DNA from: an uncultured Desulfuromonadales bacterium
GTDB lineage: Bacteria > Desulfobacterota > Desulfuromonadia > Desulfuromonadales > Geopsychrobacteraceae
Reading direction: 5' to 3'
Assembly: GCA_947259685.1 (NCBI GenBank)
Contig: CAMYNC010000052.1
Location: 1 to 23,000 of the forward strand
Length of the DNA stretch: 23,000 nt
The notes beneath the pieces were generated by a model. It worked only from the letters and a program-made list of their open reading frames with translations, was not told the DNA's origin and did not search any database. Below, one piece after another: positions 2,121 through 18,281 of the stretch; within the stretch, counting starts at the first letter, position 1, and every line of letters starts with the position of its first letter. Position numbers and translations under genes: made by a program.

Positions 2121-2828
2121 ATGAACGAAACTCAGCGAACCGTGCTGATTGTCGAGGATGATCCGAACACCGCCGAGCTGGTGGCCACCTACCTGCAGCG
2201 GGAAAACTTCATCACGCTGATCGAATATGATGGCGAGCGCGGCCTGCAGGCGGCCCGCGAGCGACACCCGGATATGGTGATTCTCGATGTGATGCTACCG
2301 AATGTCGATGGTCTGGAGATCTGCCGCCGGCTGCGCAGCGAATCGGAGGTGCCGATTTTGATGCTCACCGCCCGTGAGGAGGAGCTTGACCGGGTGCTCG
2401 GCTTTTCCCTCGGCGCTGATGATTACGTGGTCAAACCATTCAGCCCGCGCGAACTGGTCGAACGGGTCAAGGCGATTCTGCGCCGGGTGCGGCCGCCTGC
2501 CGCACCGAGCACGCAGATCCTGCAGCACGGCTCCTTAAGTCTCGATCCCGAGAAGCACAAGGTCAGCCGCGACGGTGTGGCGATCAACCTGACGTCATCT
2601 GAATACAAGCTGCTGCACACCTTGATGGCGGTCCCTGGGCGGGTCTTTTCCCGCACCGAGCTGCTGCGCCACTTCTACGACCATGAAGAGGCGGTCGTCG
2701 ACCGGGTGATCGATGTCCATATCAATAAACTGCGGCAAAAAATCGAGCCCAACCCGAGCCATCCGGTGTTTATCGAAACCGTGCGTGGCTTCGGCTACAG
2801 GTTCGCCGAAAGGGCGCCCAGCGTATGA
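2121..2828 (+). CDS. OmpR-family response regulator (BaeR-like)
   Basis: A 235-residue transcription factor. The receiver domain (about 1-120) has the acidic pair Asp13/Asp14, phospho-acceptor Asp56 in ILDVMLP, Thr83 and Lys105 in DDYVVKPF. The C-terminal winged helix (about 135-230) carries VDRVIDVHINKLRQKI and the ending ETVRGFGYRF typical of OmpR/PhoB DNA-binding domains. GGGAG precedes the ATG. Its stop overlaps the start of the kinase gene (ATGA at 2825-2828), so the two are translationally coupled. The first linker and receiver resemble BaeR, which responds to envelope stress, but the signal cannot be read from sequence. The methionine-sulfoxide reductase cluster 1.2 kb downstream is a plausible target, by inference only. 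Confidence 0.93.
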   Translation: MNETQRTVLIVEDDPNTAELVATYLQRENFITLIEYDGERGLQAARERHPDMVILDVMLPNVDGLEICRRLRSESEVPILMLTAREEELDRVLGFSLGADDYVVKPFSPRELVERVKAILRRVRPPAAPSTQILQHGSLSLDPEKHKVSRDGVAINLTSSEYKLLHTLMAVPGRVFSRTELLRHFYDHEEAVVDRVIDVHINKLRQKIEPNPSHPVFIETVRGFGYRFAERAPSV

Positions 2829-3895
2829 AAAACCGCCTGCTCTGGAAACTGCTGCTGAATATTGTGCCGGTGATCGGGGTCACTATTCTGGTCGTCTGGC
2901 TGGCGATCGACAATCTGGCGGCAACCTACTTTATGCGTTTGATGGAAAACTATTCCATCGCGCCGCACGACAGCCACCAGATGTTTCTCGAAGCGGTCCA
3001 CCGTTACTTGCTTTGGGCGGCGCTGGCGGCGCTGGCGCTGGCCTTGCTGCTCAGCTATCTGATGACCAAACGGGTGCTGCGACCACTGTCGCAAATGACC
3101 CAGATCTCCCAGGAACTGGCCTCCGGAAACTTCAGCAGTCGGGTCGAGGTGGTCTCCAACGATGAAGTCGCCCAGCTCGGCCTGGCGTTTAATCGGATGG
3201 CCGAAAGCCTGGAACAGCTGGAGCAGTTGCGTAAAAACATGGTCACCGATGTCGCCCACGAATTGCGCACCCCGCTGACCAATCTGCGCGGCTACCTGGA
3301 AGGCTTAAGCGACAACGTGGTGCCGCCGTCACGGAAAACCTTCCGCATGCTGGAAAATGAAATTCTCCGCCTGGTGCATCTGGTCGACGATCTGCAACAG
3401 TTGAGCAAAGCCGAAGCGGCCCAGGCGTTTCTGCAACGCCGGGAGCTTTCGCTGGCCACTCTGATCGAACAGCTGCGCAGTCTGTTTGATCCCCGCTTTG
3501 CCGCCAAACAGATTCAGCTAGAGGTGCAGATCGATCCTGCCGACCTGCACCTGAACGCCGACCTCGATAAGCTGCTGCAGGCGCTGCGCAACCTGCTGGA
3601 AAACGCCTGGCGTTATACCCCGCCAGGAGGCCGGGTGCAGATCAGCGGTCGGCAACTGACAGGAGCGGTCGAGGTCGCCATCAGCAACAGCGGCGAAGGG
3701 ATTAAGCAGGCCGACCTGCCGTTTATCTTCGAACGCTTCTTCCGCGCCGACCGCTCCCGCTCCCGCGAACACGGCGGCGCTGGCATCGGCCTGTCGATCG
3801 TCAAGCAGCTGGTCGAGGCCCACGGCGGCCAGGTCGGCGCTGAAAGCCATGCCGGCCAGACCCGCATCTGGCTGCGCCTGCCTGCCTCCCACTAA
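2825..3895 (+). CDS. Membrane sensor histidine kinase (BaeS-like)
   Basis: A 356-residue inner-membrane kinase, partner of the preceding regulator. Transmembrane helices lie at about 8-28 and 61-80, with only a short periplasmic loop of about 30 residues between them. A HAMP linker (about 80-133) follows. The HisKA domain has His145 in DVAHELRTPL. The ATPase domain has the N box around Asn260 (NLLENAWRYTPPGG), the G1 motif NSGEGI at 288-293, the F box FIFERFFRADRS and the G2 motif GGAGIGL at 317-323. All catalytic motifs are present. The loop is too small for a classical folded sensor domain, so it may sense within the membrane or through a partner. The family is certain, the stimulus unknown. 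Confidence 0.93.
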   Translation: MKNRLLWKLLLNIVPVIGVTILVVWLAIDNLAATYFMRLMENYSIAPHDSHQMFLEAVHRYLLWAALAALALALLLSYLMTKRVLRPLSQMTQISQELASGNFSSRVEVVSNDEVAQLGLAFNRMAESLEQLEQLRKNMVTDVAHELRTPLTNLRGYLEGLSDNVVPPSRKTFRMLENEILRLVHLVDDLQQLSKAEAAQAFLQRRELSLATLIEQLRSLFDPRFAAKQIQLEVQIDPADLHLNADLDKLLQALRNLLENAWRYTPPGGRVQISGRQLTGAVEVAISNSGEGIKQADLPFIFERFFRADRSRSREHGGAGIGLSIVKQLVEAHGGQVGAESHAGQTRIWLRLPASH

Positions 3896-3988
3896 ACCAC
3901 CTCCTCCCATTCTGCAACGAACCCTGCTCCCGGGGTATCATGGAAGCAGGATCGCTCACGGCTATCTTTACCCAATCTTTAAGCAGCC

Positions 3989-4017
3989 TTGACCTGCCCT
4001 TTAAATGGATCTGTTAG
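3989..4017 (+). promoter_or_regulatory. Candidate sigma-70 promoter for the selenoprotein-msrBA cluster
   Basis: TTGACC (3989-3994) and TGTTAG (4012-4017) are 17 nt apart and lie 34 bp before the start at 4052. The -35 matches 5 of 6 consensus bases, the -10 only 3 of 6. No terminator was found between the kinase stop and this point, so read-through from the two-component operon is also possible. Confidence 0.3.
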
Positions 4018-4051
4018 GCTGATACCCAAGTCAGAAAAAAGGAGTAAGCAA

Positions 4052-4375
4052 ATGACCAAAAATATCCTGTTCTTGATCCTGTGCAGCCTCTGTTTTAGTG
4101 TCCTGCCGCTGGCTGCCGAGCCGCTGCACGCCAAGGCAACCTTTGCCGTTGACTGATACGATGTCGGCTTAGCTGCCCTGGAAGGGCGGCCCGGAGTGAT
4201 TGAGGTGGACAAGGCTTGGCAAAGATACGATGGCTACAAATTCAGGGAGATTAACCGGGTTGAATACGACCCACAACAGGTCAGCCTCAAGCAACTGGAA
4301 GAGCGCTTGCAAGAGGTGCGGACCTATCGATACACGGTAGAAAGCAGCTTACCGGATAAAGGAGAAGCACGATGA
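4052..4375 (+). CDS. Probable selenoprotein: exported mini-MsrA-like protein, TGA decoded as Sec35
   Basis: Reading TGA 4154-4156 as selenocysteine gives a 107-residue protein. GGAG (4041-4044) precedes ATG 4052. Residues 1-28 are a Sec signal peptide (core [18 protein letters not shown]). After Sec35 the frame stays open for 72 codons and ends in an ATGA overlap with msrB, which a neutral relic would hardly keep. Residues 29-56 align without gaps to residues 45-72 of the MsrA encoded downstream: ATFAVD-Sec-Y faces AIFAGGCF, so Sec35 sits on the catalytic Cys51, and PGVIEV matches AGVISV. Later [10 protein letters not shown] matches [10 protein letters not shown]. The MsrA substrate segment ([15 protein letters not shown]) is missing, so ordinary MsrA activity is doubtful. 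A MerP/HMA-like ferredoxin fold is the alternative reading. A nonsense pseudogene or sequencing error cannot be excluded, but the SECIS-like hairpin argues against it. Confidence 0.72.
4157..4194 (+). promoter_or_regulatory. Candidate bacterial SECIS element
   Basis: Immediately after the in-frame TGA, GCTGCCC (4172-4178) pairs with GGGCGGC (4184-4190), seven pairs with one G:U, closing the loop TGGAA (4179-4183). A lower helix CGG (4165-4167) with CCG (4191-4193) can form around a 4-nt bulge. The loop starts 23 nt after the TGA and carries GG. Known bacterial SECIS elements have a short stem with G in the apical loop within roughly 16-37 nt of the UGA and are bound by SelB. The geometry fits; function is inferred. 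Confidence 0.6.
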
Positions 4376-5687: not shown

Positions 5688-6365
5688 ATGCGACACCTGC
5701 GAATGATCCTTATTACCTTTCTCACCCTGTCGATTACCCTGGTGGCTTTCGGGACAGCATTGGCGAAACCACATAAAGGCCAGATATTTAGTGTCACCAT
5801 CACCAATCTGACCAAAAAACAGGTATTCTCACCGCCGCTGGTGGTCAGCCACCAAAAATCGATTCAGCTGTATGAACTTGGCCAGCCGGCCAGTGATGGC
5901 ATCGTCGCCATCGCCGAAGGGGGCAACACCGCTCCCCTGGTTGCAGTGCTTGGCACCCTCGACAAGGTGCTGGATTATGCCATGGGCGGTGGTGCCATCG
6001 CACCTGGTGAATCGATGACCCTGAGGGTTCAAGCTCATGGGCGTTTCAACCGAATAAGTATTCTTAGTATGCTGACCAGCACCAATGACGCCTTTGTCGG
6101 GGTCAACAGCACCAGTATCCCTTATTTTGGAACCAAATCGCTGAATGCCGTCGCCTACGATGCGGGCAGCGAGAAGAATACCGAATTGTGTAGCGACCTG
6201 CCCGGGAAGCCCTGTGCGATGGATAGTGGGAATGCGCGGGTTCCCGCAGAGGCTGAGGGTTTTATCTATGTCCACAATGGTATCCACGGGGTGGGAGACC
6301 TGTTTGCCCCCAACATGACCTGGCAGAACCCGGTGGCCCGGGTGATGATAGAAAGAATGAACTGA
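5688..6365 (+). CDS. Exported spondin_N domain protein
   Basis: A 225-residue secreted protein. Residues 1-26 form a signal peptide (core MILITFLTLSITLVAFGTALA). The remainder matches bacterial spondin_N proteins: FSVTITNLTKKQVFSPPLVVSH at the start, ELGQPASDGIVAIAEGG, then VLDYAMGGGAIAPGES and a later FIYVHNGIHG segment. In animals the domain binds extracellular matrix; the role of bacterial versions is unknown. Two cysteines in CSDLPGKPC could form a disulfide. A good GGAGG ribosome site (5677-5681) lies 6 nt before the ATG. It follows msrA by 95 bp on the same strand and has a strong terminator 20 bp downstream, so it may be the last gene of that transcript or a unit of its own. Family fairly sure, function unknown. 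Confidence 0.8.
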   Translation: MRHLRMILITFLTLSITLVAFGTALAKPHKGQIFSVTITNLTKKQVFSPPLVVSHQKSIQLYELGQPASDGIVAIAEGGNTAPLVAVLGTLDKVLDYAMGGGAIAPGESMTLRVQAHGRFNRISILSMLTSTNDAFVGVNSTSIPYFGTKSLNAVAYDAGSEKNTELCSDLPGKPCAMDSGNARVPAEAEGFIYVHNGIHGVGDLFAPNMTWQNPVARVMIERMN

Positions 6366-16742: not shown

Positions 16743-16822
16743 AGAAAGACCTCAAGAGTGCGGAATGGCTGAAACAATGCAAAAGTTTATCACATCAGCG
16801 CAGAAATGGCCTGCCCAGTTGA

Positions 16823-16850
16823 TTGTCGCGAGCAATTTCCTTGTTACAAT
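16823..16850 (+). promoter_or_regulatory. Candidate promoter for the dppA remnant
   Basis: TTGTCG (16823-16828) and TACAAT (16845-16850) are 16 nt apart. The -10 matches 5 of 6 consensus bases, the -35 only 3. It lies about 150 bp before the dppA start, so the leader would be long. A small hairpin CCCTT/AAGGG (16880-16892) lies in that leader. Nothing else was recognised between 16743 and 17003. Confidence 0.3.
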
Positions 16851-17003
16851 GGGATCTTTACCTCATTAAAGCCAAGTGACCCTTATCAAGGGCAGGATGA
16901 CTGCTTGACAGCGGTGCTGGGCTGGTTGCAGTTTGGCAGCTTTTTTATTCTCACCAAGGATCACTATGCATTACCCAACCCGATATTCTTCAGGAGGTCT
17001 GAC

Positions 17004-17428
17004 ATGCGCTCAATCCTCACCCGACTGCTCCCGCTCCTCGCTCTGCTGGCTGTGGCCGGACTGGCCCAGGCGAAAACCCTGGTCTATTGTTCGGAAGGCA
17101 GCCCGGAAGGCTTCAATCCGGTCTTTTACACCGCCGGCACCACCTTTGATGCCACATCGAAAAACGTTTTCGAAGGGCTGACCCACTTCGTCCGCGGCAC
17201 CACCACCATCGAACCAGGCATGGCGGAAAGCGGGCAGATCTCCGAAGATGGCAAAACCTACACCTTCAAGTTGCGTCAGGGGGTCAAATTCCATTCCGCC
17301 AAACACTTTATTCCGACGCGCGACATGAACGCCGATGACGTCCTCTTTACCTTCGAGCGTCAGTGGAAACCGACCATCCCTTCCACAAGGCCTCTGGCGG
17401 CAGCTACGAAGGTATAATTAATATGTGA
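17004..17428 (+). pseudogene. dppA: Truncated, frameshifted dipeptide ABC transporter binding protein (dppA remnant)
   Basis: Only the first quarter of a DppA-type periplasmic peptide-binding protein remains (about 140 residues; the family is about 530). AGGAGG (16992-16997) precedes the ATG. Residues 1-22 are a signal peptide, then KTLVYCSEGSPEGFNP, EDGKTYTFKLRQGVKFH and MNADDVLFTFERQWKP closely follow E. coli DppA from memory. After that Pro the frame reads nonsense to a TAA at 17415, whereas a one-base shift near 17370-17372 restores DHPFHKASGGSYEGIINM, the expected DppA continuation, ending at TGA 17426-17428. The rest of the gene, and any dppBCDF genes, are missing; a ChaN-like gene follows instead. 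So there is one small deletion plus a large truncation, probably at a recombination join near 17428. It is not expected to work. Confidence 0.88.
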
Positions 17429-17492: not shown

Positions 17493-18281
17493 ATGAACTA
17501 TCGATGCTACGGCAAACAGGGGGACGAGATCCACTCTGACGATATGGCAGAGTCCCTTGCCAAGGCAGACGTGGTTCTCTTCGGTGAACTGCACGGCACC
17601 CCTCTTATCCACCGGTTGCAGCAGGAGATCACCCGCGAGCTCTTCGCCATCAGAAAGCAGGACCTGGTTCTCGGGACTGAAATGTTCGAGGCGGACGATC
17701 AACTGATCCTGGATGAATACCTTTCCGGACTGATCCTGCATCGACATTTGGTGGCTGAGGCCAAGGTCTGGGACGGGTACGATAGCGATTACCGGCCGCT
17801 GGTCGATTTTGCCAGGGAGCAGGGCCTGCGTTTCATTGCCACGAATATCCCCAGACGCTATGCCAACCTGGTGGCCCGCGAGGGGCTCGGTGCCCTGGAG
17901 CGTCTCCCTGACGAGGCGAAGCGGTTCATCGCTCCTTTCCCGATAACGGTAGATCTAGCGACCCCCGGCTACCAGGAAATGCTGGGGATGAATATGGAAC
18001 AGGGAATGGGAATGGAGCCGGGCAATTTCGTCGCGGCCCAGGCGGTAAAAGATGCGACCATGGCGCATTTCATCCTGAACAACCTGCCGCCCGACGGGCT
18101 GATGGTCCACTTCAACGGCGATTACCACTCCAAACGGTACGGCGGTATTTACTGGTACCTGCAGCGGGCCGACAGGGATCTCACCGTGTTGACAATTGCT
18201 TCGGTTGCGGGAGAATCCCTGGAGTTCGCTGAAGGATGCAGGGACTTGGGGGATTTTGTACTGATTGTTCCTGAGGTTTGA
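17493..18281 (+). CDS. ChaN-like (Cofac_haem_bdg, PF04187-type) protein
   Basis: A 262-residue protein of the ChaN/Tiki-like fold, known from Campylobacter ChaN as a haem-binding lipoprotein linked to iron uptake. Near the N-terminus VVLFGELHGT (28-36, Glu32 and His34) is the family signature. Further family-like blocks are LVLGTEMFEADDQ, VDFAREQGLRFIATNIPRRYANLVAREG, PGNFVAAQAVKDATMAHFI and VHFNGDYHSKRYGGIYWYL. There is no signal peptide or lipobox, unlike exported members, so this copy looks cytoplasmic or has lost its 5' end. The only ribosome-like GGAG is 13 nt from the ATG, which is long, and no other in-frame start exists before an upstream stop. It lies directly after the dppA break, which suggests it arrived by, or was re-joined in, the same rearrangement. 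Confidence 0.82.
   Translation: MNYRCYGKQGDEIHSDDMAESLAKADVVLFGELHGTPLIHRLQQEITRELFAIRKQDLVLGTEMFEADDQLILDEYLSGLILHRHLVAEAKVWDGYDSDYRPLVDFAREQGLRFIATNIPRRYANLVAREGLGALERLPDEAKRFIAPFPITVDLATPGYQEMLGMNMEQGMGMEPGNFVAAQAVKDATMAHFILNNLPPDGLMVHFNGDYHSKRYGGIYWYLQRADRDLTVLTIASVAGESLEFAEGCRDLGDFVLIVPEV

Follow-up and report, generated by a model that had tools for sequence, protein, structure and literature searches.

A predicted selenoprotein with an MsrA-like core encoded beside msrB and msrA in an uncultured Desulfuromonadales bacterium

The gene, its in-frame TGA and its homologues

A stretch of 23,000 nucleotides from an uncultured Desulfuromonadales bacterium (GenBank assembly GCA_947259685.1, contig CAMYNC010000052.1, positions 1 to 23,000 of the forward strand; the whole stretch is called the window here) carries a small gene that lies immediately upstream of msrB and msrA and has an in-frame TGA at codon 35 (Table 1). 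The gene almost certainly encodes a selenoprotein in which this UGA is read as selenocysteine (Sec), a judgement made because independent lines of evidence agree. The exchange of Sec for Cys, the selenocysteine insertion sequence (SECIS), the fold (from homology and a structure model), the linkage to methionine sulfoxide reductase (Msr) genes and one fusion to MsrB are all comparison-based findings.

Direct reading of the gene gave a GGAG ribosome-binding site 7 nt ahead of the ATG at 4052, a hydrophobic N-terminus that resembles a signal peptide, 72 further open codons after the TGA, and a stop codon (TGA 4373–4375) that overlaps the msrB start (ATG 4372–4374) as ATGA, all as described in a first-pass annotation of the same DNA. 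The residues following Sec35 are YDVG. That annotation also held that a conventional gene caller would stop at TGA 4154 and lose the gene or call a 34-residue peptide. The gene is indeed cut short, but the product listed for the window in the protein search (P0010) is a 56-residue piece starting at an internal GTG, not the 34-residue peptide.

A first search, with Cys replacing Sec, identified two 63-residue proteins, both starting just past the critical position. A profile search matched 19 proteins, including the window's own P0010, and a later profile of 24 rows matched 248, with 120 listed. From the matches listed, 137 proteins were aligned (P0003–P0140 minus P0010); Cys occupies the Sec position in 121, Trp in three and Gly in one, while 12 start three residues past it. 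Such starts are what would be expected of gene callers that meet a TGA and then take the next ATG or GTG. When a genome collection spanning 84,980 species was scanned for one peptide pattern, 11 loci came up, ten of them true homologues; the remaining locus, L011, was a chance match to a different protein and was dropped. All ten homologues have TGA at the equivalent of codon 35, and the TGA loci in one alignment share 37–70 % protein identity with the window.

Further surveys covered 277 genomes of the same class, 395 of the phylum and 12 of the phylum to which L009 and L010 belong. In total, TGA was found at 24 loci (window included), Cys at 11 and Ser at one (L055). Homologues therefore carry Cys or TGA at position 35, the pattern that the first-pass annotation had named as support for Sec, bar this Ser locus and the three Trp and one Gly proteins. 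The same-class survey matched 61 of the 277 genomes, of which 23 carry the domain by manual reading. Its weak matches numbered 38, and the seven with loci (L039–L045) were inspected: five proved to be MsrA and one an HMA protein; the seventh, L042 (G064:C4:21309-21395), is an apparent C-terminal remnant of a family member that lacks the Sec/Cys part. The flanks seen of the Ser locus (L055/L064) contain no msr match. The 11 Cys loci include L037 (TAG in frame), L034 (no clear ATG) and L030 (start off the contig), and exclude L035 (which starts past the Sec position), L036/L070 (fusion) and L055. One TGA locus, L038, in which the contig ends inside the gene, is excluded from the 23-row hairpin and neighbour counts given below.

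On a tree of 34 rows, which has few columns and many unresolved forks, the Sec/Cys label needs three changes, compared with a shuffled mean of 9.5 (0 of 500 shuffles as low). The part of the gene after the TGA is under purifying selection, with nonsynonymous and synonymous divergences (dN and dS) between the window and L001 of 0.149 and 0.83. Searches of plasmids gave weak tblastn matches only (32–35 % identity, E 0.3–0.4) and no blastn match with the locus.

The SECIS hairpin and the Sec machinery

The window hairpin has an 8 bp stem, a GGA loop and 23 nt from TGA to loop. The bacterial SECIS model published in PMC13188914 has a loop of 3–9 nt, a stem of 4–16 bp, G in loop positions 1–2, a spacing of 16–37 nt and a minimum free energy (MFE) of ≤ −7.5. 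The window hairpin satisfies all of these terms (MFE −14.1 over 27 nt), and the first-pass proposal of a SECIS-like hairpin at the right distance gains from the pairing being kept in TGA loci. Six to eight of the eight pairs form in each of the 23 TGA loci versus two to five in each of the 11 Cys loci, and standard pairs account for 92.9 % and 40.9 % of cells, respectively. Among the TGA loci, three of the eight stem pairs have changes on both sides; the covariation score was reached by 0 of 500 shuffles and the pair count by four of 500, and slid registers scored at most 0.065 versus 0.219 in the true register. Synonymous codon identity in the hairpin was 0.716 for Sec pairs (917 of 1281) versus 0.434 for Cys pairs (72 of 166), with corresponding values in the flanking stretches of 0.481 versus 0.522 and 0.347 versus 0.291. 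Mean fold energy was −13.0 kcal/mol for Sec loci versus −6.6 kcal/mol for Cys loci. The hairpin seems to account for part of the conservation of the LEGR peptide.

A SECIS-like criterion (at least seven pairs, a loop of 3–7 nt, G in loop positions 1–2 and ≤ −9.6 kcal/mol, an energy limit chosen after the Sec loci were inspected) was passed by 20 of the 23 Sec loci and none of the 11 Cys loci. As background, the criterion is also passed at 100 of the 6151 codon positions of window genes (1.6 %), and an energy of −14.1 kcal/mol is attained at 13 of the 6151. The case for a hairpin beyond chance is made by comparison, because TGA is present in 24 loci, the pairing is kept and the downstream sequence is under purifying selection. 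An Rfam gathering scan of the window matched no family at cut-off, and ARAGORN found no tRNA gene in the window.

SelB and/or tRNA-Sec were present in all 14 TGA-form genomes tested, all relatives of the window's source; the first-pass annotation had named a lack of sel genes in the genome as refuting. SelB was over cut-off in 12, tRNA-Sec in 12 and both in ten; nine further Sec genomes lie outside this test. Counted tRNA-Sec matches scored at least 66.9 bits, compared with a cut-off of 47. In 14 well-known control genomes, SelB was over cut-off in two (Escherichia coli and Methanocaldococcus jannaschii), and tRNA-Sec was over a strict limit in two. In G009 a C-terminal piece of SelB lies about 240 nt from a run of 100 N, in a frame that opens after the run, and a pilus-type ATPase gene lies on the other side; an assembly gap has probably split the gene.

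Several results weigh against Sec decoding at this locus. The single-sequence 48 nt fold is unremarkable (z −1.35, equalled by 18 of 200 shuffles), three of the 23 Sec loci fail the SECIS-like criterion, and sliding the register by −1 likewise yields three pairs with both-side changes, but in three cells versus eight. The Ser homologue L055 is an exception at the Sec position. tRNA-Sec matches passed the lax limit in five of the 14 control genomes, and the sel-gene evidence comes from relatives' genomes only, not from that of the window. Among 12 other genomes tested (Cys was read in 11 of them, while G014 was not read), SelB was found in 11 and tRNA-Sec in nine. Sel genes are thus mostly present in other genomes too, and therefore their presence alone is no marker of the Sec form.

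The alternatives to Sec nevertheless fare far worse. A dead gene or sequencing error, with the TGA a nonsense mutation of a Cys codon, might be suspected given that TGA is one base from TGC and TGT and that the Cys form is common. This was rejected and is given only a very slight chance, since 24 loci share the TGA at this codon, the dN and dS past it indicate purifying selection, and the hairpin is kept in TGA loci only; the first-pass preference for Sec over a dead gene holds on the same grounds. A reading of the TGA as tryptophan, or plain stop readthrough, is more improbable still. Trp does stand at the position in P0005, P0012 and P0018, which come from contigs of 797–1748 bases and in which the gene caller probably translated TGA under code 4. 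The selenoprotein gene itself and the genes at 2121–2828, 5688–6365 and 17493–18281 end in TGA, and therefore TGA is no general sense codon; genome-wide use as Trp was rejected on this basis. The usual residue in homologues is moreover Cys, not Trp, and both a SECIS and, in relatives, the Sel machinery are present.

Fold and relation to known families

Profile comparison by hhalign aligned the family with MsrA over 56 columns (98.0 %, E 2e-13), with Sec opposite the catalytic Cys. The 13 best Foldseek matches of the structure model, which has a predicted local distance difference test (pLDDT) score of 83.8, and above 90 in the blocks of residues 31–90, were MsrA. By homology and model, the protein resembles a pared-down MsrA core (beta-alpha-beta-beta-alpha-beta) with Sec at the position of the MsrA catalytic Cys. 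The catalytic set of MsrA, which we take to be Cys51, Tyr82, Glu94, Asp129 and Tyr134 in E. coli numbering, is of a type that was invariant in an alignment of 18 MsrAs. Of this set, the window protein has only Sec at the Cys in the hhalign alignment: the Tyr82, Asp129 and Tyr134 segments are absent, the protein ending short of the latter two, and Glu66 stands opposite Glu94 in a weak match only, a gap in the hhalign alignment placing it elsewhere. The window protein scored 12.6 bits with Pfam PF01625, below the cut-off of 23.7, and did not match TIGR00401 at E ≤ 1; among the 24 members the best E-values were 4.2e-4 (PMSR) and 0.019 (TIGR00401). Selenoprotein MsrA (PF01625/TIGR00401; C. oremlandii 4lwj and 4lwm) shares the fold core, Sec at the catalytic position and a methionine sulfoxide context. 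The window protein, however, is about half its size, lacks the Tyr82, Asp129 and Tyr134 segments, and is encoded in an operon with a complete Cys-type MsrA.

The UxxU metal-binding (seleno)protein (NF041115), MerP and HMA domains have a ferredoxin-like fold in common with the family. In HMA proteins the reactive residues likewise stand at the start of helix 1. The window protein differs from all of these in its single Sec, with no UxxU or CxxC, and it scored 13.2 bits with NF041115, compared with a cut-off of 95 (best member E 2.5e-4).

A near catalogued relative is the VPGUxxT family thioredoxin-like (seleno)protein type 2 (NF041383; 'hypothetical protein OS_HP5' in Table 1 of PMC13188914). 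The C-terminal part of the NF041383 model (positions ~145–205) is the same kind of domain as the family; the model matched all 24 members (best E 3.4e-11), and hhalign to the L070 protein gave 97.7 %. In NF041383 the catalogued Sec lies in an N-terminal VPGU thioredoxin-like domain that is absent from the window protein, whereas the family has its Sec in the domain of C-terminal type, where L070 has Cys. The window protein falls outside NF041383 (28.4 bits, cut-off 275), matching through the C-terminal part only.

Membership of a known selenoprotein family was rejected, the window protein lying below every NCBIfam and Pfam cut-off and the other 23 members nowhere near by E-values. Table 1 of PMC13188914, a 2026 inventory of 119 selenoprotein families and subfamilies, has no fitting entry, the nearest being MsrA and NF041383. 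Hypothetical selenoproteins DF (NF049942) and DG (NF049953) are absent from the 15 families matched by the 24 members; their models matched none of six genomes carrying the family, and DG also matched no control genome. Identity with the DF and DG families of PMC12013277 was rejected for want of any model match. The 34 candidates in the supplement of PMC8318568 could include the family. A term search of PMC5029168 gave no match, and a literature search found no paper joining selenoprotein with Desulfuromonadales and MsrA, or with MsrA-like. As far as the literature was searched, the family may be new to print, with an unlabelled earlier sighting in supplements conceivable.

Neighbouring genes and proposed role

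Table 1. Features of the locus, with positions in the window and the evidence for each
Feature	Position	Strand	Evidence
OmpR-family response regulator	2121..2828	+	Pfam Response_reg and Trans_reg_C
Sensor histidine kinase	2825..3895	+	Pfam HAMP, HisKA, HATPase_c
Direct-repeat block, TCTTTA-type, candidate response-regulator site	3965..4008	+	Two 17 nt copies 22 nt apart, 71 % alike
TGnTA, candidate −10 element	4012..4016	+	Invariant columns in 8/8 rows
Ribosome-binding site GGAG	4041..4044	+	Sequence
Predicted selenoprotein gene, 107 aa, Sec as residue 35	4052..4375	+	Sequence reading, homologue comparison and selection downstream of the TGA
TGA predicted to be decoded as Sec, codon 35	4154..4156	+	TGA at 24 loci, Cys at 11 loci, Cys in 121/137 proteins among the matches listed
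Putative bacterial SECIS hairpin, stem 4172–4179/4183–4190, loop GGA 4180–4182	4172..4190	+	Fold, pairing conservation, Sec versus Cys comparison
Truncated 56 aa call of the selenoprotein gene, internal GTG start at 4205, P0010	4205..4375	+	Protein search entry for the window
msrB, N-terminal membrane/export-like segment	4372..4917	+	TIGR00357, 187 bits (cut-off 113)
msrA, N-terminal export-like segment	4936..5592	+	TIGR00401, 211 bits (cut-off 108)

The adjacent msrB and msrA, named as such in the first-pass annotation, were recognized by their family models (Table 1). In flanks of about 6 kb for L001–L010 and about 1.5 kb or less for other loci, msrA or msrB was found at 18 of 23 Sec loci (the window and 17 of 22) and at seven of 11 Cys loci. 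The msr genes lie downstream in the window and L001–L010 and upstream in L049, L053 and L054. Export-like hydrophobic N-termini were seen by eye on MsrA and MsrB of the window and most loci, while the MsrA proteins of L026 and L029 have none as drawn. In L063 (1638-2450, plus strand), one open frame encodes both MsrB and the Sec domain, a fusion that strongly suggests a functional link to MsrB; a histidine kinase and a response regulator are matched upstream. In L070 (G095:C1:50055-50903, minus strand), a Cys form makes up the C-terminal half of a VPGC thioredoxin-like protein encoded near msrA/msrB. In G138 the VPGC half and the family domain are separate genes, and likewise in G103, where the family domain is interrupted.

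Orthologues of the response regulator lie upstream of the family in L001–L006, L008, L020, L022 and L025, and the histidine kinase is also found upstream in related loci. The TCTTTA-type block is conserved in all eight aligned upstream regions, with invariant columns mainly in its first copy (3965–3981). Direct repeats of this kind are the usual appearance of an OmpR-family site, and the block is a candidate for binding by the adjacent response regulator. A scan for sigma-70 consensus promoters and terminators found neither. Other genes of the window include a Spondin_N domain protein downstream of msrA (5688–6365), a relative of which is encoded immediately 3′ of the Cys form of L065, a locus without an msr match in its flanks. 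A solute-binding protein gene (PF00496) at 16806–17417 ends after profile positions 1–57 of 368 and looks truncated; it is followed by a ChaN-type haem-binding gene (17493–18281).

The protein very probably belongs to an exported Msr system, and the same strong confidence attaches to this and Sec decoding taken jointly. An Msr partner is the best guess because of the fold, the Sec position, the gene neighbourhood and the MsrB fusion. Against this stand a number of findings. Foldseek E-values were all above 0.001, and VIA-align scored MerP/HMA metal-binding domains equal to or above MsrA, failing to separate the two folds. The family alignment contains no second conserved Cys or Sec for an internal disulfide. 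No msrA or msrB was seen in the flanks of five of 23 Sec and four of 11 Cys loci, and L022, L047, L024, L031, L032 and L033 had no msr match in wider flanks either. Three of the Sec loci that lack msr genes (L048, L050 and L051; wider flanks L060–L062) instead lie near a gene of molybdopterin oxidoreductase type (PF00174; E 3.5e-30 for the L062 copy, with the L061 copy 73 % and the L060 copy 61 % identical), which is possibly a relative of MsrP or sulfite oxidase.

The arrangement may be compared with HprRS-MsrPQ of E. coli, a two-component-controlled periplasmic Msr system. The likeness lies in two-component genes beside methionine sulfoxide repair genes with export-like N-termini, and in the PF00174-type gene that adjoins the family members of L060–L062. 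The E. coli system, however, has other enzymes and no selenoprotein, and for the present locus we infer regulation from the conserved upstream block alone.

In the proposed mechanism, a small and probably exported protein would have its UGA 35 decoded as Sec by means of the adjacent SECIS hairpin. Selenoprotein, MsrB and MsrA, all with export-like N-termini, would form an operon for methionine sulfoxide repair that is probably controlled by the upstream two-component system. Reduction of methionine sulfoxide by MsrA or MsrB would leave a sulfenic acid or disulfide on the Msr enzyme; Sec would attack it and then hand the oxidation to a periplasmic thiol system. That the protein is a reductant or relay for MsrA/B, as opposed to having another role, has somewhat less than an even chance, and the electron transfer itself is conjectural. 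The full proposal, of a cut-down MsrA fold that serves as a dedicated exported selenol carrier regenerating MsrA and MsrB outside the cytoplasm, an electron donor built on a ferredoxin-like rather than a thioredoxin fold and under its own two-component control, is put forward tentatively. The lack of the other MsrA catalytic residues makes a complete reductase less likely, and the single Sec, with no resolving residue, favours a carrier that depends on a second thiol protein.

The same selenoprotein could instead be the enzyme itself, a miniature Sec reductase of methionine-S-sulfoxide or of another small sulfoxide, peroxide or chlorine oxidant. This appears unlikely, though it is the stronger of the two other roles considered: it has no Tyr82 segment and stops short of Asp129 and Tyr134 (the 18 MsrAs are invariant at all three), Glu66 does not stand opposite Glu94 in the 56-column hhalign alignment, and a complete MsrA often adjoins. 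A sensor, or a metal or electrophile binder of HMA/MerP type, whose single Sec would bind a metal or react with an oxidant and signal to the adjacent histidine kinase, is a more doubtful role again. There is one Sec or Cys only and no CxxC, the MsrB fusion in L063 indicates the repair enzyme, and profile comparison favours MsrA, a result for the MsrA side only and not head-to-head with an HMA alignment.

Beyond the first-pass annotation, the analysis contributes the family itself, the MsrA fold, the MsrB fusion and the upstream block, and the known selenoprotein families gain one whose genes are truncated by gene finders. The split into Sec and Cys forms, of which the Sec form alone has a SECIS, offers a clean natural example of dual coding constraint. 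Gene neighbourhood ties many members, and a fusion ties one, to MsrA and MsrB with export-like N-termini. On that account the family is a concrete candidate for the means by which exported Msr enzymes might be kept reduced in Desulfobacterota.
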